Source: Erysipelotrichia bacterium (lineage in GTDB: Bacteria > Muiribacteriota > Ozemobacteria > Ozemobacterales > Ozemobacteraceae). Taken from it: a stretch of 37,613 nt of DNA. Position 1 is the first letter of the stretch; the number at the start of each line of letters is the position of its first letter. Location of the stretch: assembly GCA_009928855.1 (NCBI GenBank), contig SABV01000007.1, forward strand, positions 1 through 37,613, read 5' to 3'. The notes under the pieces are model-generated. The model was given only the letters and a program-made list of their open reading frames with translations. It searched no databases and had not been told where the DNA came from. Below are positions 1-33,768 of this stretch, in pieces. Made by a program: the position numbers and the translations under genes.

Positions 1-770
1 TCATCTGTACCGAACAGCACAAGGCCTTCGAGGGCTATTTCCCTGATGCGGGTTCGAGCATCTTCAAAAAGCAGCTGAAATATGTTTCGGTCTTCAATGA
101 GAGGCCTGCTTACAAGAGCTTCGGCAATAACCTGCCTGACTTCGGCATTCGATGATTTTACAAGACGGCGCACGTGCGCGTAAGCGCCCTCGTCTTTAAG
201 GCGTGACAAAGCAATACTGGCAACCAGTGACACCCCCCAGTTAGCACTACCTGTGAGCATTTTAAGAGATGTGTGCCGTTCTGGTGACGGGTGCCTGACA
301 AAATAATTTACCGCAGTAAAAAGCAGTTCAGGGTCACGTGTCTGGCCGATGATTTCGTTCATCAGCGATGCAACTCTTATGTCGTCATAGCTAGACAGAA
401 GTTCTAGAAGCTTTTTGCGCACCGAAGTCGGCTGATCGGCGCTGCATGACCTGACCACTATATCGACAGCCGGCAAAAAGTTGAAGCTTTTAAGAGCGTT
501 AAAAGCAACGTCAGAGAGAGTTCCGGCATCGTTAAGTATGAATTCAACGATATGTTTGACAGAGCCAGGGTTGCCAATTCTGCCCAGAGCCTTGACAACC
601 TGTTCTACCACTTCGCTATCTGGCGACGACAACAGGTCTACAAGCAAATCTGCATGGTTTTTAACACGCAAAATACCGAGAGCAGCCACCGAAAGCAGCT
701 TTTCTTCTCTGTTGGTGCTTTTGAGACCATCAATTAGATTTTGAAAGCGGCTTTTTCCGGTTTCTGGCAT
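1..770 (-). CDS. HEAT-repeat protein, 3' end outside window
   Basis: An open frame runs from an ATG at 770 to the left edge without a stop, giving about 256 visible residues. The ATG is preceded by AGGAG eight or nine bases upstream. I translated this frame directly. It is a series of paired amphipathic helices of about 30 residues, with HEAT-like stretches such as SPDSEVVEQVVKALGRIGNP and SNAEVRQVIAEALVSR. There is no signal peptide or membrane segment, so it is probably cytoplasmic. HEAT repeats usually serve as protein-binding scaffolds; no catalytic domain is visible in this part. It begins 16 bp after murA stops and is likely the last visible gene of the rpiB-upp-murA operon. A second, larger HEAT protein lies at 30612-33710, so this genome uses the fold more than once. 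Specific function unknown. Confidence 0.8.
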   Translation of the reverse strand, partial: MPETGKSRFQNLIDGLKSTNREEKLLSVAALGILRVKNHADLLVDLLSSPDSEVVEQVVKALGRIGNPGSVKHIVEFILNDAGTLSDVAFNALKSFNFLPAVDIVVRSCSADQPTSVRKKLLELLSSYDDIRVASLMNEIIGQTRDPELLFTAVNYFVRHPSPERHTSLKMLTGSANWGVSLVASIALSRLKDEGAYAHVRRLVKSSNAEVRQVIAEALVSRPLIEDRNIFQLLFEDARTRIREIALEGLVLFGTD

Positions 771-786
771 GGCGATCACTCCTGTT

Positions 787-2058
787 TTATTTTTCTGTGT
801 GCGGTTCTTCGATTCGTTGTATGCTGGCACCCAGCTTACGAATACGGCCGACCAGGTCTTCATAACCCCGATCAATGTGGAAAACCTGGCTTATTTCTGT
901 GCAACCCTGCGCCACAAGACCAGCCAATACCATTGCGGCACCGGCACGCAGGTCTGTTGCCGAAACCGGCGCGCCCTTAAGAGATTCAACACCGTGTATA
1001 ACGGCTGTGCGATCGTGAATATTGATGTTTGCGCCCATTCTGGCCAGTTCGGATACGTGCATAAACCTATTTTCGAAAATGGTTTCAGTTATAGATGAAG
1101 TTCCGCTGGCAATACACATGGCCGCCATCAACTGTGCCTGCAGATCAGTTGCAAAACCAGGAAACGGCAGAGTTTTTATTTCTACAGCTTTCAAGCGCTG
1201 TTGAGCAGAAACCACCAGAGCATTCGATTCGGTAATAACGTCTGCGCCCATTTCACGAAGCTTGTTAATAAGTGCAAGCAGGTAATCAGGATCACAGTTT
1301 TCGACCCTGACAGGCCCACCGGCCATAGCACCAAGTACAGCAAACGTGCCGGCTTCAATGCGATCGGGCATAACACTGTATTCACCGCCACCCAGTCGCT
1401 CTACTCCGTCGATAATAATACTCGGATTGCCGGCACCTTCTATCTTAGCGCCAATAGTATTCAAAAACCTTGCCAGATCAACTATTTCCGGTTCCTGGGC
1501 GGCATTTTCGATAACAGTGCGACCTTCGGCAAGAGTTGCCGCCATCATCAGATTTTCGGTAGCCCCGACAGACGGAAAATCAAGCAGAATTTTGCAACCA
1601 CGAAGCTTTTCTGCAACCGCCACAGCACAGCCACCTTCAATTGAAACCTGTGCTCCGAGAGCCTCAAAACCCTTAAGGTGAATATTAACCGGTCTTACGC
1701 CAATGGCGCAGCCCCCCGGCAACGGCACTCGCGCTTTTTTTAGCCTGGCAAGCAACGGCCCCATGACAAAAAAGCTTGCACGCATGGTTTTGACCAGCTC
1801 ATAAGGAGCTTCATCGCTGATCTGACCTGAAGCATCAAAATCGTAAACATTAGCGCGAGCCAGGTTGACCTTCGTTCCAAGAGCCTCAAGGACTCTGGCC
1901 ATGGTGTCAACATCGTTAAGCGCCGGTACATTGAGCAATCTGACCGGTTCACTGCTCAAAATAACCCCGGCCATAATCGGAAGCGCCGCATTTTTAGCGC
2001 CACTTACCTTGATACTGCCACTAAGGGGTTTTCCGCCCTCAATAAGAATTTTTGCCAT
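787..2058 (-). CDS. murA: UDP-N-acetylglucosamine 1-carboxyvinyltransferase
   Basis: MurA transfers enolpyruvate from PEP to UDP-GlcNAc, the first committed step of peptidoglycan synthesis in the cytoplasm. The 423-residue protein has the family's usual length and starts MAKILIEGG. The substrate-binding K22-N23 pair is in the GAKNAALP motif, and the catalytic cysteine is C117 in PGGCAIGVRP. This cysteine form is the fosfomycin-sensitive type, as known for the family. The C-terminal GYEDLVGRIRKLGA signature is present. The gene starts 3 bp after the dCMP deaminase stop, so it is translationally close to it and part of the rpiB-upp-dCMP deaminase-murA operon. I recall a similar gene order near the ATP synthase operon in Firmicutes. 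No unusual features. Confidence 0.97.
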   Translation of the reverse strand: MAKILIEGGKPLSGSIKVSGAKNAALPIMAGVILSSEPVRLLNVPALNDVDTMARVLEALGTKVNLARANVYDFDASGQISDEAPYELVKTMRASFFVMGPLLARLKKARVPLPGGCAIGVRPVNIHLKGFEALGAQVSIEGGCAVAVAEKLRGCKILLDFPSVGATENLMMAATLAEGRTVIENAAQEPEIVDLARFLNTIGAKIEGAGNPSIIIDGVERLGGGEYSVMPDRIEAGTFAVLGAMAGGPVRVENCDPDYLLALINKLREMGADVITESNALVVSAQQRLKAVEIKTLPFPGFATDLQAQLMAAMCIASGTSSITETIFENRFMHVSELARMGANINIHDRTAVIHGVESLKGAPVSATDLRAGAAMVLAGLVAQGCTEISQVFHIDRGYEDLVGRIRKLGASIQRIEEPHTEK

Positions 2059-23179: not shown

Positions 23180-23262
23180 GGAGGAATGGCCGAGTGGTCT
23201 AAGGCGGCGGTCTTGAAAACCGCAGGGTGAAAGCTCCGTGGGTTCGAATCCTACTTCCTCCG
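23180..23262 (+). tRNA. tRNA-Ser(UGA)
   Basis: The acceptor stem GGAGGAA/TTCCTCC pairs fully, with discriminator G. The anticodon arm GCGGT-CTTGAAA-ACCGC gives anticodon TGA. There is a long variable arm typical of serine tRNAs and the T arm GTGGG-TTCGAAT-CCTAC. The 3' CCA is not encoded. Confidence 0.96.
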
Positions 23263-23273
23263 TTTGCTCGTCT

Positions 23274-23362
23274 GGAGAGATGGGTGAGTGGCTTAAACCA
23301 ACAGTTTGCTAAACTGTCGTACTGGGTAACTGGTACCGGGGGTTCAAATCCCCCTCTCTCCG
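23274..23362 (+). tRNA. tRNA-Ser(GCU)
   Basis: The acceptor stem GGAGAGA/TCTCTCC pairs fully, with discriminator G. The anticodon arm ACAGT-TTGCTAA-ACTGT gives anticodon GCT. It has a long variable arm and a T loop TTCAAAT. CCA is not encoded. It lies 11 bp after tRNA-Ser(UGA). Confidence 0.96.
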
Positions 23363-23370
23363 AAGTGAAT

Positions 23371-23445
23371 GCGCCCGTAGCTCAGTTTGGATAGAGCACC
23401 AGATTGCGGATCTGGGGGTCAGAGGTTCGAGTCCTCTCGGGCGCG
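23371..23445 (+). tRNA. tRNA-Arg(GCG)
   Basis: The acceptor stem GCGCCCG/CGGGCGC pairs fully. The D stem is GCTC/GAGC with the TGGATAG loop (A20, an arginine identity feature). The anticodon arm CCAGA-TTGCGGA-TCTGG gives anticodon GCG, and the T arm is AGAGG-TTCGAGT-CCTCT. CCA is not encoded. A GCG anticodon for arginine is uncommon in bacteria, which usually use ACG modified to ICG. Confidence 0.95.
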
Positions 23446-23494
23446 ATTGCTTTTTCTGGGCATTTTTGTTTTACAAAAAAACCCAAGAAAACCA

Positions 23495-23582
23495 GGAAAG
23501 GTGGCTGAGTTGGTCTAAGGCACACGCCTGGAAAGCGTGAGTGGGGGCAACTCCACCGCGGGTTCGAATCCCGCCCTTTCCG
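23495..23582 (+). tRNA. tRNA-Ser(GGA)
   Basis: The acceptor stem GGAAAGG/CCTTTCC pairs fully, with discriminator G. The anticodon arm CACGC-CTGGAAA-GCGTG gives anticodon GGA. It has a long variable arm and T arm GCGGG-TTCGAAT-CCCGC. CCA is not encoded. The SRP RNA begins 2 nt later. Confidence 0.96.
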
Positions 23583-23584
23583 TT

Positions 23585-23857
23585 GTCGTGCTAGATGGAG
23601 GGCTCGGGGTCCTCTATACACCGCAAATCCCCGCCAGGCGGATCGAATTCCTGCCAGAGGGCACTGTTGGTGGTAACGGCCAGTTCTAGAAGCATCGAAG
23701 GATGGGTTCCACACGGCGAAAGTCCGTGAACTCCGCCAGAACCGGAAGGTAGCAACGGTAAACGATAACTTTCGGGTGATGTGGCAGCGCCTGTCCGGAG
23801 CCTATAGTTCAGGATACGTGCCATTGATCTGTGTTCGAGGGCAGGTGCACGACTTTC
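23585..23857 (+). ncRNA. ffs: Signal recognition particle RNA, long form with Alu domain
   Basis: The hallmark of SRP RNA helix 8, the GGAA tetraloop with the asymmetric AGCA loop, is visible as CCGGAAGGTAGCAACGG near 23740-23760. The 5' GTCGTGC (23585-23591) pairs with the 3' GCACGAC (23847-23853), closing the long helix. The 5' part (GTGCTAGATGGAGGG... TATACACCGCAAATCCCC) resembles the Alu domain of long bacterial SRP RNAs, so at about 270 nt it is the Bacillus/Thermus-like form, not the 4.5S form. A terminator hairpin follows at once. It guides Ffh to ribosomes making membrane proteins. The ends are estimated. Confidence 0.93.
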
Positions 23858-26236: not shown

Positions 26237-26309
26237 GACAAGAATATTTTTTGTTATTTGCTGAAGTTTTTAATTCGAGCCTTTGCTCGTAATGACAGGA
26301 GAACCGCTT

Positions 26310-27587
26310 GTGAAGATAAATATGCCTTTGAGACTGATGTTTATGGTTCTGTTACTGTGTCTGTTTTCACTTTCTGTTTCTGCCAAAGAAACAGAATTTG
26401 AATTTTATTACCAGCGCATCGAAAAAGTGGTCCAGATAAATAATCCTGAGCCAAAAGGCTGGTGGGAAACCGCTAAGAGCATTGTTAAAAGTGGCGTAAA
26501 CCTCGCTAAAAAAACATGGGAAAAAGCGATTACCCGCAACTTCAACCCAGGCGAAGGCACCAAACGCTGGTATTCTGATAAAGATAAAAATATGGCGTAT
26601 GATGTGAGTCGTGTAAAAGTGACCAGCGAAAAGCATCTGTTTGAACTTATGGGTGCTAAGAGCGAAAATGAACTGACTGACGGCCAGAAAGCTCTACTGG
26701 CTGTTTATCGTCATTCTAAATCACAGGCTGTTAAAGACCGTATGGCATACAGCTATCGTTCGTCGATTAACGTAATACTGTCTGATACTACAGGGTTTGA
26801 TAGTCCCGCCGCTTATCCGAATGTAGAACAGGATTTTTGGCCATACTCCAGCGGCATGACAATTCAGATGTCAAGTGGACGCTATAATTGGCCCGGGTCT
26901 GAAGACTCAGCGAAATCGACTTTCGTGCATGAGTTTTCCCATTCAATGGATCGTACTATAAAAGAAATTATCAATCCATACGGCAAAGACGGTAGTCACT
27001 TCGGAAATGAGCTCACAAAACCCAGAACCGCTTTTGTTGAAGGCTGGGCTGAATTCAATGAGATGCTTGATTCTGAAAGCAAAGCAAGAAGCATAAAAAA
27101 CAATATTGGTGTTATCAAAATCGAAGATAAAAAGAAAGCCGGAACATACACCAACGTCGAACCCGAAACTCTCTCTGGAGATGATCTTCTTTCTGTGGAA
27201 GGCATTAACGCAGTTATTATGTATAGAATTGCCAAAGAAAGCGAAAATGGTCGCAAAAAAATCTTTGATGCCTTTACTTCAAGCCGTTGGAAGCTCTTTA
27301 GAAGCCTCAAAACAATTACTCTTGAACTGGCAAAAAAGAATCCCGCTGACATTGCTTTAATCGGAAAAATTATTGATGAACAGACGCTTGGCAAGCTTTC
27401 TGATACTGAAATGATGAAATTTATTGGCGAATCAGACGAGGCAAAAGCATATCTGCAGAGCCGTGCTGAAGCTCAGGCAACAGAAGAGAATGCGGCAGAC
27501 AATTCTGGGGTCAGTGCCACCACCAACGGGTCACCTCTCGATATCGAAGTTAAAACCGAAAGCAGTAATCCGTTCTCGGTAAAATAA
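26310..27587 (+). CDS. Secreted HExxH zinc metallopeptidase-like protein
   Basis: A 425-residue protein with a Sec signal (MKINMPLRLMFMVLLLCLFSLSVSA). The zinc-protease motif H207-E208-FS-H211 is visible in STFVHEFSHSMDR. A downstream FVEGWAEFNE (glutamates about 244 and 248) could supply the third zinc ligand, as in gluzincins. Flanking regions are not recognised; the last 40 residues are a low-complexity Glu/Ala/Ser tail. The GTG at 26310 is chosen because AGGAG stands eight bases upstream; an upstream TTG at 26283 has no such site. It is a single gene with its own promoter and a strong terminator. The substrate is unknown; a role as periplasmic or secreted peptidase is inferred from the motif only. 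Confidence 0.8.
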   Translation: MKINMPLRLMFMVLLLCLFSLSVSAKETEFEFYYQRIEKVVQINNPEPKGWWETAKSIVKSGVNLAKKTWEKAITRNFNPGEGTKRWYSDKDKNMAYDVSRVKVTSEKHLFELMGAKSENELTDGQKALLAVYRHSKSQAVKDRMAYSYRSSINVILSDTTGFDSPAAYPNVEQDFWPYSSGMTIQMSSGRYNWPGSEDSAKSTFVHEFSHSMDRTIKEIINPYGKDGSHFGNELTKPRTAFVEGWAEFNEMLDSESKARSIKNNIGVIKIEDKKKAGTYTNVEPETLSGDDLLSVEGINAVIMYRIAKESENGRKKIFDAFTSSRWKLFRSLKTITLELAKKNPADIALIGKIIDEQTLGKLSDTEMMKFIGESDEAKAYLQSRAEAQATEENAADNSGVSATTNGSPLDIEVKTESSNPFSVK

Positions 27588-27658: not shown

Positions 27659-28147
27659 TCAGCTGAATTCCTTGAGCATAGCTTCTAGTTCGGGGTCGTC
27701 GAAAGGCTCGTCCTGGGTTTCTCTTACCATATAGACCAGTTTTTTCAGATCCAGTTCCGAAAGGCTTCCACGATCCTTGAGAGGTATTTTTTCGGCCTCT
27801 TCGTGAATGAGCTTTTTTATGAACTTTTCCCGGGTTGGTCGGTCAGCAATAACCTGATAGATCTTTTCGGCGAGCACTGCCGGATCGACCAGTTTGTATG
27901 TGCCATCCTGCACCTGTCGGGCAATTTCCTGAAGCCTCTGCATGTGCACAAGCTGCTGCTGTTGCACCACTTTTAGATTGTTTTGCAGCAGACTGCCGCG
28001 CGAAACCACTGGCTCGGAACTTTCTGTTCCAGAAGTCCTGTCTTTTAAAGCTCCATCGAAAGATGTCTTCTTTTCAACAGGCTCTTTAGCCTTGGGTTTG
28101 GTAGTTATTATTATCTTTTTCCCAGGCCCCTGAATGGATTCAACCAT
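27659..28147 (-). CDS. FlgM-like protein (possible anti-sigma-28 factor)
   Basis: A 162-residue, charged, soluble protein. The first 50 residues are Lys/Pro-rich and probably disordered. Residues about 68-100 (QRLQEIARQVQDGTYKLVDPAVLAEKIYQVI) resemble the sigma-28-binding part of FlgM (xxI..G.Y.VD...VAEKI). A further helical region follows (DRPTREKFIKKLIHEEAEKI...) that ordinary FlgM, about 100 residues, lacks. The ATG at 28147 has GGGAG seven bases upstream; a TTG at 28180 is less likely. A sigma-28-like promoter lies about 60 bp upstream, which would fit the autoregulatory loop known for flgM in enterics. It is convergent with the metallopeptidase gene. The FlgM assignment is plausible, not certain. 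Confidence 0.55.
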   Translation of the reverse strand: MVESIQGPGKKIIITTKPKAKEPVEKKTSFDGALKDRTSGTESSEPVVSRGSLLQNNLKVVQQQQLVHMQRLQEIARQVQDGTYKLVDPAVLAEKIYQVIADRPTREKFIKKLIHEEAEKIPLKDRGSLSELDLKKLVYMVRETQDEPFDDPELEAMLKEFS

Positions 28148-28207
28148 ACTAAAACTCCCTGTAACTTCCTTGTTAAACAAGCATATTTTTCCCTTATCCC
28201 AATTTAA

Positions 28208-30060: not shown

Positions 30061-30151
30061 AGCTGTCTTTTGGCTGAATTGAGAATAAGGAAATAATTTT
30101 CTTTTTTTGCGTCTTGTACATTTGAATGCTGCTTTTTATTGATTATTTGGG

Positions 30152-30220: not shown

Positions 30221-30607
30221 ATGGCCAAAACTATACTTGTGGCTGAAGACTCCTTGATGTTGCGTAAAGTAGCATGTTTTCCACTCGAAAAACAGGGCTA
30301 CAAAGTGCTCGAAGCTAATAATGGCATCGAGGCTATTGAAGCAATGTCAAAGAATGAAGTAGATATCATCATTACAGACTTAAATATGCCGGGCATGGAT
30401 GGTTTCGAGCTCATTAGCCAGGTCAAGGAAAACGAAAAATTTAAACATATTCCTATTATTATTCTTACCACCGAAGGCAAAAAAGACATGGTAATGAAGG
30501 GTTTGACGCTGGGGGCCAATGCTTTCCTTCAGAAACCTATCAAGCCTGATGTCATGCTGAAAGAAGTAGAACGCCTTCTTAGCAAGTCTACAGGAAAGGG
30601 GGTCTGA
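30221..30607 (+). CDS. CheY-like single-domain response regulator
   Basis: A 128-residue receiver domain with no output domain. The acidic pocket E9-D10, phosphoacceptor D53 (IIITDLNMPGMDG), switch T83/T84 and K105 (LQKPIKP) are all present, so it should be phosphorylated by a histidine kinase encoded elsewhere. The ATG at 30221 has GGAGG eight bases or so upstream; a longer in-frame form is not supported. It starts an operon whose next gene, 4 nt after the stop, encodes a HEAT-CheR fusion. Receiver plus CheR-type protein recalls chemotaxis-like signalling, but no CheA, CheB or receptor gene is in the window. It lacks the usual CheY aromatic residue pattern needed to claim motor binding. Confidence 0.92.
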   Translation: MAKTILVAEDSLMLRKVACFPLEKQGYKVLEANNGIEAIEAMSKNEVDIIITDLNMPGMDGFELISQVKENEKFKHIPIIILTTEGKKDMVMKGLTLGANAFLQKPIKPDVMLKEVERLLSKSTGKGV

Positions 30608-30611
30608 TTGA

Positions 30612-33600
30612 ATGACAAGTTCATCGGCATTGCTGGAACAATTAAAAAACTCAGATCCATCCTTGAGACGCAAAGCAATTCGCGAACTGGCCAGATATCC
30701 GGAGCAGATGGAAGTAATAGATGCTCTGTGCCTGGCTCTTGGCGACCCAAATAAGGGTGTACAGAACATTTCCATCGAAGCTCTTTCTTCGATGCAACAC
30801 GAAAATGTTATTCACGGGCTGATTCCTGTGGTCAAAAGCTCTGATTTGAATACCAGAAATGCTGGCATGACCATTCTGAGAAATCTTGGCTCGATGGCCG
30901 TAGATCCTTTGATTAAGGCCGTCACAACATCTGAAGATGTTGACGAAATAATTCAGATTCTTGTGATTCTCGGTGATATTCATTCTCCCCTTGCAACAGA
31001 CACAGTTATGAAGTTTCTCGGCCATGCCGACGACAATATAAAAACTACCGCTGTCGAATCATTGGGCAAAATCCAGGACCCAAAAGCCGTAGACATATTG
31101 CTTGAAACATATAAAAGTTCAGACATTCTTAAATACTCTGTTGTTGAAGCTCTGGGCAATATTTCTGTGCCCAAGGCCATGCCGATATTGCTTGGCGCCC
31201 TTGAATCTGCTGATATTCTTGAATATTTTACAGCTATTGGTGCCATAGGTGCCATGGAATCAGTCGATTGTATCGAACCTCTTTTTAACAAAATATTCAA
31301 AGAAGAAGACAGTGGCACCCGCCGCCTGATCTTTAAATCGCTGGCTCAGATAGAAGAAGCAAACCCGGGTTCGCTTAAAAAACATGACCAGTCGGTTCTC
31401 AGACCAATTTTGTTGTCGCTTCTCGAAAATCAGGATGCCGCAGAATACCACCTGCTGGTAAAAGTGGCTGCTGCATTGCAAGACGACGAATACATTCCGG
31501 TTCTTTTGGCTGCTATCGAAAATGATGAAGCTGAAATAGCTGATGTCGCATTTGAAGGCCTTGTCAACATAGGGAAAAATGCCGTCAAACCTGCCCTTGC
31601 TAAAATAAGCTCTGTTAAGCCCTCGGTTGCCGCTAAAATCCTTGCGCTTCTCGAAAAATTTCCGTCACCCGAAATTTCACCGGCAATAGCTTCGTTGGCC
31701 AAGAATTCAGACGATGTTTTGCGACAGGCTTTGGCAAAAACTCTTGGCGCAAATCCTTCTGAAGCTTCTTTTGCAACCCTCAAAGAAATGCTTGAAGACC
31801 CTGATGAAACGGTCCGTCGTAACGTAGTTGCCGCTATGTCGGGTATGTTAGACCATGATGGATCACTGGCTCTGCTGTTTAAGAAGCTTAAGGATATAAA
31901 TGGTCACGTCAGACGTGAGGCATGTTTTTCTCTGGGAAAATCTACCTCAAGCCAGCTTACTGAGCCTCTTTTTGAAGTTATTAACACAGAGCCCTACGGA
32001 GACGTTCGTGAAGCAGCAGCTTCTGTTCTGGCCGGCAGAAAAGATCCTCAGACAACCAGAAGACTTCTAGAACTTCTTGACAGCGACAATTCGAGAGTTC
32101 GCGAAACCATTTCCAGAACCATCTGGCAGTGCGGGTCTACTCTCGCTGTTGATTCACTGATTCAGAAATTGAATGATAAAGAATGGCGCGTGGTCGTAAA
32201 TTCGTGTAATTCTCTCGAGAACATGAAAGACCTCAAGTCTATTTTTCCGCTCAAAGAACTGCTGAAAAGCCCCGACTGGCAGATAAGAATCGCTGCTTTG
32301 TCTGCTTTGCGTTCTTTTAAGAGCAAAGAACTCAAGCAATTTTTTGTGCCCATGCTCTCTGACGAAAATGCTCAGGTGGCAAAACTTGCTGTTGTGGCAC
32401 TCAGTGAACTCGGCGACAAGTCGCTCGACATTGATTTGCAGAAGCATATCAAGCACACCCGCTGGGAAGTCAGATACCAGATTGTCAAAGCTCTCGGAGA
32501 TATAAAGAGCCAGGGCAGCGTCAGTTTGCTGACTCAGATGGTTGAAAAAGACGAAAGCAATGCAGTCAGGGCGCGTGCAATTTTTGCCCTGGCCAAAATC
32601 GGTGATAAAAAAGCTGCAGAAACCGTTTATACGGTATTAGACAACAGCGACCGCAATCTTGTGATTTCTGCAATCAAGTTTTTCAGGGATACGGGCGAGA
32701 ATCCGATGAATGGCCTTGAAGATAAACTGAGAACCATCTTTTTGCGTGATGCCTGGATAAGAAATTATTTTATCAACACCTTTTCGCAGAATCGTTCAGC
32801 TTTTATCGAAAAGATACTTAAATCTGTCATATCGCCGCGTCAGTCACGCCTCATTGATCGTCTCAAAACTGTGTCGGTAGAAGAAAAGGGTATAAATACC
32901 GAAGAAGCTCTGTTGCTGCGTGATATCATTGCCGAAAAATGCGGCGTAGACATTGCTGATAAAGCAACTCTAGAACAGAAACTATCGCGCAATTTCGGTC
33001 GGTTCTTCATCACCTCCTGGATAGAATATTACCATTCTCTCAGATACGGAGCAGAAGAAGGTAGTGACTTGTTAATAAATCTGTATGATTCAATAACCAA
33101 TCCAACCACTGAATTTTTTGCTGAAGCTGAACAGAATAAGGTTCTTGTTTCCAGTATTATACCTGACCTGATTGAATCAAAGGTTAAAAGTGGTGGCGAT
33201 GAAATAAAGATTCTTTGCTGTGGTGTATCTTTTGGACCTGAAGCTTATTCAATGGCTATGAGCGTTCTTGAAGATGTGCATTCTGATAAGGCAAAAGTGA
33301 AGGTTGTCGGCATTGACGTTTCGCATATATGCCTTAACACCGCTCGTCGCGGTATTTATAAGCGCGAAATGTTCAGGCAGATAGATCAGAAATATACTGA
33401 CCTGTATTTTGAAGACGACCGTGGTGATCTGCGCGTTAAAGACCAGGTTAAGAATCTTGTAGAATTTAAATATACCAACGTGGTCAATGCCGAAGCCATG
33501 GAGCAACTCGGTGAATTCGATGTCGTAATCTGCCGCAACCTGTTTTCTGATTTTGCTCAGAAATCCAGAGAATATATGGCTGAAAATATCTACAATATTC

Positions 33601-33710
33601 TCGTGCCCGGCGGAGTACTGCTGATTGCTGCCAAAGAAACTCTGTATAACGTCAGCAAGGCTTTCAGATTACAGACTTTTGATAAAGTGGTGGCCTATCG
33701 GAAACTTTAA
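30612..33710 (+). CDS. HEAT-repeat protein fused to a CheR-type methyltransferase domain
   Basis: Of 1032 residues, about 1-740 are roughly twenty HEAT-like repeats (for example DPNKGVQNISIEALSSM, DSNAVRARAIFALAKIGD-type units). Residues about 755-815 match the helical CheR N-terminal domain and 815-1032 the SAM-dependent domain (ITNPTTEFFAE, CGVSFGPEAYSMAM, ARRGIY, FDVVICRNL, LVPGGVLLIAAKETL). CheR methylates chemoreceptor glutamates. Compared with Salmonella CheR, the Arg of FFRE (R98) is Ala 837 and the Tyr of RNVMIYF is Asp 980. These residues are thought to act near the methyl transfer, so catalysis is doubtful though SAM binding may remain. The start has a GGGGG run nine bases upstream. 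No membrane segment. Coupled to the CheY-like gene; presumably a signalling scaffold. Confidence 0.85.
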   Translation: MTSSSALLEQLKNSDPSLRRKAIRELARYPEQMEVIDALCLALGDPNKGVQNISIEALSSMQHENVIHGLIPVVKSSDLNTRNAGMTILRNLGSMAVDPLIKAVTTSEDVDEIIQILVILGDIHSPLATDTVMKFLGHADDNIKTTAVESLGKIQDPKAVDILLETYKSSDILKYSVVEALGNISVPKAMPILLGALESADILEYFTAIGAIGAMESVDCIEPLFNKIFKEEDSGTRRLIFKSLAQIEEANPGSLKKHDQSVLRPILLSLLENQDAAEYHLLVKVAAALQDDEYIPVLLAAIENDEAEIADVAFEGLVNIGKNAVKPALAKISSVKPSVAAKILALLEKFPSPEISPAIASLAKNSDDVLRQALAKTLGANPSEASFATLKEMLEDPDETVRRNVVAAMSGMLDHDGSLALLFKKLKDINGHVRREACFSLGKSTSSQLTEPLFEVINTEPYGDVREAAASVLAGRKDPQTTRRLLELLDSDNSRVRETISRTIWQCGSTLAVDSLIQKLNDKEWRVVVNSCNSLENMKDLKSIFPLKELLKSPDWQIRIAALSALRSFKSKELKQFFVPMLSDENAQVAKLAVVALSELGDKSLDIDLQKHIKHTRWEVRYQIVKALGDIKSQGSVSLLTQMVEKDESNAVRARAIFALAKIGDKKAAETVYTVLDNSDRNLVISAIKFFRDTGENPMNGLEDKLRTIFLRDAWIRNYFINTFSQNRSAFIEKILKSVISPRQSRLIDRLKTVSVEEKGINTEEALLLRDIIAEKCGVDIADKATLEQKLSRNFGRFFITSWIEYYHSLRYGAEEGSDLLINLYDSITNPTTEFFAEAEQNKVLVSSIIPDLIESKVKSGGDEIKILCCGVSFGPEAYSMAMSVLEDVHSDKAKVKVVGIDVSHICLNTARRGIYKREMFRQIDQKYTDLYFEDDRGDLRVKDQVKNLVEFKYTNVVNAEAMEQLGEFDVVICRNLFSDFAQKSREYMAENIYNILVPGGVLLIAAKETLYNVSKAFRLQTFDKVVAYRKL

Positions 33711-33729: not shown

Positions 33730-33768
33730 ATGGGCTGCTTTGCTTCTGCAAAGCAGCCCATTGTTTTT
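33730..33768 (+). terminator. Strong terminator after the HEAT-CheR gene
   Basis: A 14-bp perfect stem ATGGGCTGCTTTGC / GCAAAGCAGCCCAT with a TTCT loop and a TGTTTTT tail, 20 bp after the stop. Confidence 0.93.

Follow-up and report, generated by a model that had tools for sequence, protein, structure and literature searches.

A CheY-like receiver paired with a HEAT-CheR fusion protein lacking both CheR catalytic residues in a family of Candidatus Riflebacteria

Introduction

In Salmonella CheR, R98 and Y235 are the key catalytic residues, and the R98A substitution abolishes swarming (PMC3447774). CheR domains are also found fused to other modules. In the CheR-TPR proteins, among them FrzF and WspC, CheR is joined to an α-solenoid repeat; the main group is catalytically intact, carries its TPRs at the C-terminus and is encoded in che clusters, while a small subgroup with N-terminal TPRs has also been noted to be without the catalytic residues (PMC3447774). 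The closest described system is CheW-CheRlike of the spirochaete F2 chemosensory systems (TDE1492 in Treponema denticola), in which the equivalents of both residues are lost (R79W, Y218F). This protein is fused to CheW, is co-transcribed with CheA and is part of the array; it is predicted to be inactive but binds SAM with a Kd of 8.8 µM, and ordered receptor arrays depend on it (PMC7666581).

Here we describe a gene pair in which a CheR-like domain without these two residues is fused to a HEAT solenoid and partnered by a receiver. The window, as we call the whole stretch of 37,613 nucleotides analysed, is a contig (contig 656) of a 4.47-Mb draft genome; among named genomes, MAGs of Candidatus Riflebacteria, Ozemobacter and Rifleibacterium are the closest to it. 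No publication describing a HEAT-CheR fusion or a chemosensory protein of Riflebacteria was found in the open-access literature.

Results

Organization of the gene pair

A sequence-only reading of the window had described a single-domain receiver followed 4 nt later by a HEAT solenoid fused to a full CheR module; its coordinates and reading frames are right, and Pfam agrees for both genes (Table 1). The receiver stop and the HEAT-CheR start are 4 nt apart in the window; over all 21 orthologous junctions this spacing ranges from -4 to +4 nt, and the end of the receiver gene has a purine- or G-rich stretch there too. The two genes are apparently translationally coupled. Sigma-70-like sites are fewer in the region than expected by chance (2 found, 6.7 expected), and no Rfam match to a SAM riboswitch was obtained before the pair.

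Table 1. Features of the gene pair and of its surroundings in the window.
Feature	Position	Strand	Evidence or remarks
CheY-like single-domain receiver, 128 aa	30221..30607	+	Pfam Response_reg, 5e-29
HEAT-CheR fusion protein, 1032 aa	30612..33710	+	Reading frame and Pfam; 21 other genomes have an orthologue, in one case cut off at a contig end
HEAT α-solenoid, about residues 1-740	30612..32831	+	Pfam HEAT_2, 5e-84; AlphaFold2
CheR N-terminal helical subdomain, about residues 756-831	32877..33104	+	Foldseek to full-length CheR structures (low-confidence model)
CheR SAM-binding domain, residues 832-1032, both catalytic residues lost	33105..33707	+	Pfam CheR, 8e-39 (residues 832-1022); phmmer
Codon of A837, CheR Arg98 position (TEFFaEAE)	33120..33122	+	Alignment
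SAM-binding motif I GVSFGPEAY, residues 871-879	33222..33248	+	G, S, G, E and Y invariant
D902, SAM-binding Asp154 position	33315..33317	+	Invariant
Codon of D980, CheR Tyr235 position (CRNLFSdF)	33549..33551	+	Alignment
Ribosome-binding-like stretch GGAAAGGGGG, within the end of the receiver gene and 9 nt upstream of the HEAT-CheR ATG	30593..30602	+	Sequence
Weak match to a sigma-70-like promoter, upstream of the receiver gene	30070..30097	+	9/12 matches; not significant
Strong intrinsic terminator hairpin, 14 pairs then TGTTTTT, ending the two-gene unit	33730..33761	+
173-aa protein, weak FlgM-like (anti-sigma-28) match	27659-28180	-	E 1.4e-4, just below the Pfam cut-off
Secreted-looking protein with HEFSH zinc-metalloprotease-like motif	26283-27587	+	No convincing family match in Pfam or NCBIfam
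Four tRNA genes, then large bacterial SRP RNA	23180-23852	+
Another HEAT-repeat-like protein, running off the window start	3-875	-	Reading of the sequence

The HEAT solenoid and the predicted structure

The N-terminal part was modelled by AlphaFold2 as continuous paired helices (pLDDT mostly 80-90; input of seven orthologues), and its most conserved stretch in a conservation profile comprises residues 461-600. The product of the second gene gave no match to an ordinary TPR family in Pfam and none to CheW. Its repeats differ from those of the CheR-TPR proteins in being HEAT repeats, N-terminal and about 740 aa in extent.

In the full model the CheR part has low confidence, and Foldseek with that model returned only general HEAT or α-solenoid proteins. 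The sequence-only reading had called for a structure prediction of the C-terminal part. Modelled alone, this part remained poor (pLDDT 54), and no detailed pocket geometry is claimed from it; the ten best Foldseek matches in the PDB were nonetheless all CheR, most of them aligned over both subdomains, so that the prediction is supportive only. Independently of any model, phmmer matched the CheR structures 5xly, 5ftw and 1af7 (E 5e-20 to 4e-13). The C-terminal part of the fusion therefore has the sequence and fold of CheR, with an N-terminal and a SAM-binding subdomain. Both subdomains and the SAM pocket are shared with the canonical proteins 1af7, 5ftw and 5xly; the protein described here differs from them in lacking Arg98 and Tyr235, in its HEAT fusion, and in having a receiver as partner instead of CheB.

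Catalytic residues and SAM pocket of the CheR domain

Twenty-two orthologous HEAT-CheR domains were aligned with 37 other CheR domains of the phylum. The columns of A837 and D980 are unambiguous, being flanked by conserved FF.E and CRN...F residues. The Arg98 position is occupied by G, A, S or D in the orthologues (the small residues G, A or S in 21 of 22) and the Tyr235 position by D, A, S, V or T (Asp in 14 of 22), so both catalytic residues are absent from all 22. Among the other CheR domains, Arg is present in 37/37 and Tyr in 36/37, the exception being one Phe; this comparison set consists of best-scoring matches and under-samples degenerate CheRs, some of which exist. Since the 22 orthologues come from independent MAGs, the two substitutions, which had been noticed in the window as Ala for Arg and Asp for Tyr, are real and not an accident of sequencing or alignment. 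The good overall match to CheR would suit an ordinary CheR with shifted or compensated substitutions, the explanation that an alignment had been proposed to check; that is very unlikely, because the flanking columns align cleanly in all 59 sequences, with no neighbouring Arg or Tyr to stand in for the lost residues. A third proposed loss did not hold: AAKE had been taken for a degenerate GHSE motif, but its Glu (E1009) is kept in 22/22, and the rest of the motif also varies among the active CheRs of the same genomes (SANE, GESE, SATE), so no loss has occurred there. On this evidence the domain is a member of the CheR superfamily that lacks the catalytic residues of the receptor methyltransferases.

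The outline of the SAM pocket, in contrast to the catalytic residues, is kept as the sequence-only reading had proposed. G871, S873, G875, E877, Y879, D902, N956 and R975 are present in 22/22 orthologues and N976 in 20/22. In the Treponema CheW-CheRlike, residues next to the pocket are less conserved (PMC7666581). Because the pocket is so well kept, the main rival to a non-catalytic role is a neofunctionalised methyltransferase that uses SAM on a substrate other than receptor glutamate, with the HEAT part recruiting the substrate and the receiver regulating the reaction. The Arg and Tyr that handle glutamate would then have been replaced, the invariance of the whole pocket is stronger than a mere scaffold needs, and the predominance of Asp at one position and of small residues at the other would fit. 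No new residue is fixed at either position, however, which is unusual for a selected active site, and the closest precedent with the same losses is considered inactive and still binds SAM (PMC7666581). We regard a changed substrate as unlikely.

Distribution and conservation

Of the 24 genomes of this family of uncultured bacteria (Ca. Riflebacteria), 22 have the HEAT-CheR gene, full-length in 21 and truncated by a contig end in one. It was not found in G012 and G019, MAGs that are 83% and 69% complete, and no full-length counterpart was found in 16 genomes of the other families of the phylum. The fusion search used patterns from close relatives, and statements on whole genomes rest on family searches.

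Conservation within the protein peaks in the CheR C-domain, whose mean pairwise identity is 72% as against 60% and 68% for the two HEAT halves. Compared with an intact CheR type (C439) of the same genomes, the dead domain is the more conserved (71.7% vs 50.9%), its identity being higher in 55 of 55 pairs from 11 genomes. A phylogenetic tree from a quick search, run without bootstrap and leaving out the two catalytic columns, united the 22 HEAT-CheR domains (support 100); their stem is 1.4 changes per site long, and the branches within the group are short. The catalytic loss, shared by all 22, is fixed in the lineage, and the role of the domain changed once, after which it was strongly constrained. 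Decay of a CheR domain on an otherwise functional HEAT protein would account for the loss of catalytic residues taken alone, but the domain surpasses the rest of the protein in conservation and stays open in all orthologues; decay was rejected on the ground of this conservation, and we give that explanation almost no credence. The pattern shows instead strong purifying selection on the dead domain, with the SAM pocket retained.

Other CheR-like proteins with degenerate domains were also seen. One, mostly of 200-215 aa but lying within a longer frame of 693 aa in L120, is encoded in che clusters of the same family near a CheA/CheW gene (L124:5409-6032, L121:4900-5541, L122:5037-5657, L119:8183-8788, L120:13421-15499), most of which also hold an intact CheR. 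It keeps Arg98 where that position is covered, has His for Tyr235 (CKNVLLHF) and often has Gln for the late Glu. Proteins of about 1370 aa in the two genomes of one genus (L128:3554-7678, L129:3220-7329) carry a strongly degenerate N-terminal CheR domain, with Gln or Lys at the Arg98 position and Lys at the Tyr235 position.

The receiver and its pairing with the HEAT-CheR gene

The receiver has the receiver fold, an acidic pocket (E9/D10), a phosphoacceptor (D53), T83 and K105, and no output domain, as do CheY-like single-domain receivers. These pocket residues are unchanged in 21 orthologues, which are 83-95% identical. Beyond them, no receiver of the phylum exceeds 44% identity (36-44% for the nearest paralogues), and several of the nearest paralogues sit on contigs with che genes. 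Descent from a chemosensory CheY is plausible from these sequences. Compared with CheY-type single-domain receivers, the phosphorylation site is likewise intact, but the receiver described here is an orphan coupled to the HEAT-CheR gene and is distinct from the receiver found on a CheA contig. That it is the flagellar CheY was considered and is less likely; in G014 and G020 the contig that carries the CheA genes encodes a different single-domain receiver. Small relatives have only 2-3 single-domain receivers, that of the pair among them.

The receiver orthologue occurs in all genomes in which the start of the HEAT-CheR gene lies on a contig and in no others, and it is always directly upstream. 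The co-occurrence of the two genes, one of the checks that had been suggested, is thus perfect wherever it could be assessed (21/21). The module is specific to one Riflebacteria family, in which the intact receiver is strictly co-inherited with the pseudo-CheR fusion.

Genomic and chemosensory context

No other gene always adjoins the pair, and the flanking genes differ between genera. TPR, FlgM-like and metalloprotease-like genes upstream are common to many relatives, including those for the 173-aa and the secreted-looking proteins of Table 1. A larger conserved operon was rejected, since the downstream genes change and L098 and L099 are also without the usual upstream genes. In one relative a CRISPR array lies a few kb downstream of the pair (L087:14123-16700), with about 36 copies of the repeat GTTTCAGTTACTTGTTCTTTGACAGAGCCTCTGTTAC at a spacing of 69-74 nt.

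In agreement with the sequence-only reading, the ORFs of the window include no recognisable CheA, CheB or receptor; the che genes are elsewhere in the genome. These encode CheA, a CheA/CheW-like protein, a further CheW, a CheR-CheB pair and another CheR; the catalytic residues of both these CheRs are intact. The genome also has four MCP matches, FliG and many type II/IV secretion ATPases. With its CheA, CheW and MCPs, a phosphodonor and possible targets exist in the cell; none is linked to the pair.

In relatives the genes for CheA and the CheA/CheW-like protein adjoin flhA-, flhB-, flhF- and flhG-like genes (named by reading the sequences). Directly downstream of CheA there is, throughout the family, a second protein of about 506-532 aa (L101:10015-11571, L130:7952-9469, L134:8831-10369) that begins like CheA at its N-terminus and contains a CheW domain, apparently without a kinase domain. 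In several relatives a conserved HEAT-repeat protein of about 405-412 aa is encoded convergently to the CheA genes (L101:8768-10003, L130:6725-7942, L134:7602-8816).

Given the chemosensory genes of this genome and the direct precedent of the Treponema CheW-CheRlike (PMC7666581), the fusion might be a purely structural array component, its pseudo-CheR packing among receptors or CheA and the receiver being merely a co-transcribed neighbour. The protein has no CheW domain and no adjacent che genes, however, and a receiver so well conserved and never found without its partner is more than a passenger. This makes a purely structural role improbable.

Discussion

The HEAT-CheR protein resembles the spirochaete CheW-CheRlike in having a CheR fold fused to an interaction module, in the absence of the same two catalytic residues and in its conservation within a lineage (PMC7666581). 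It differs in its HEAT solenoid, in its receiver partner and in having neither a CheW domain nor a place in a che cluster. By analogy it may work like CheW-CheRlike; for the last two reasons it is not a member of that group. The HEAT-CheR architecture and the partnership with a receiver appear to be new, the genome search having covered close relatives.

We favour, as the probable reading, an output module of two genes: the HEAT scaffold would provide a docking site for the receiver, and the pseudo-CheR would bind SAM/SAH or a partner without methylating receptors. A kinase, probably CheA, would phosphorylate the receiver, which in that state would dock on the solenoid or, alternatively, on the pseudo-CheR domain. 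The CheR domain, as a SAM/SAH-binding, non-methylating interaction domain, would anchor the complex to a target such as a chemoreceptor array, CheA or another effector, or would modulate that target. The protein would then be a pseudo-enzyme scaffold in the manner of CheW-CheRlike and not a receptor methyltransferase. The principle is already known, because CheW-CheRlike, with the same two losses, still binds SAM and organises receptor arrays.

The sequence-only reading had likewise suggested a SAM-sensing or docking scaffold in place of a receptor methyltransferase, and a distinct signalling pair. Both suggestions gain support from the fixed catalytic loss, the SAM pocket that is kept, the strong purifying selection on the dead domain and the strict pairing with one receiver in a two-gene unit outside any che cluster. 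A narrower version, in which the pseudo-CheR is a true SAM/SAH sensor whose cofactor occupancy changes the HEAT scaffold, is put forward tentatively, as possible but doubtful. If it were true, the module would integrate methylation state or metabolism with the phosphorylated receiver; to our knowledge such integration is undescribed for CheY outputs.

With the HEAT-CheR protein, the retention for another role of a CheR methyltransferase without these two catalytic residues would be known twice, from unrelated phyla. Its unusually clean receiver partner makes the role of the dead CheR directly testable with two proteins. The finding suggests that annotating every CheR domain as a methyltransferase makes it easy to miss CheR-like scaffolds.
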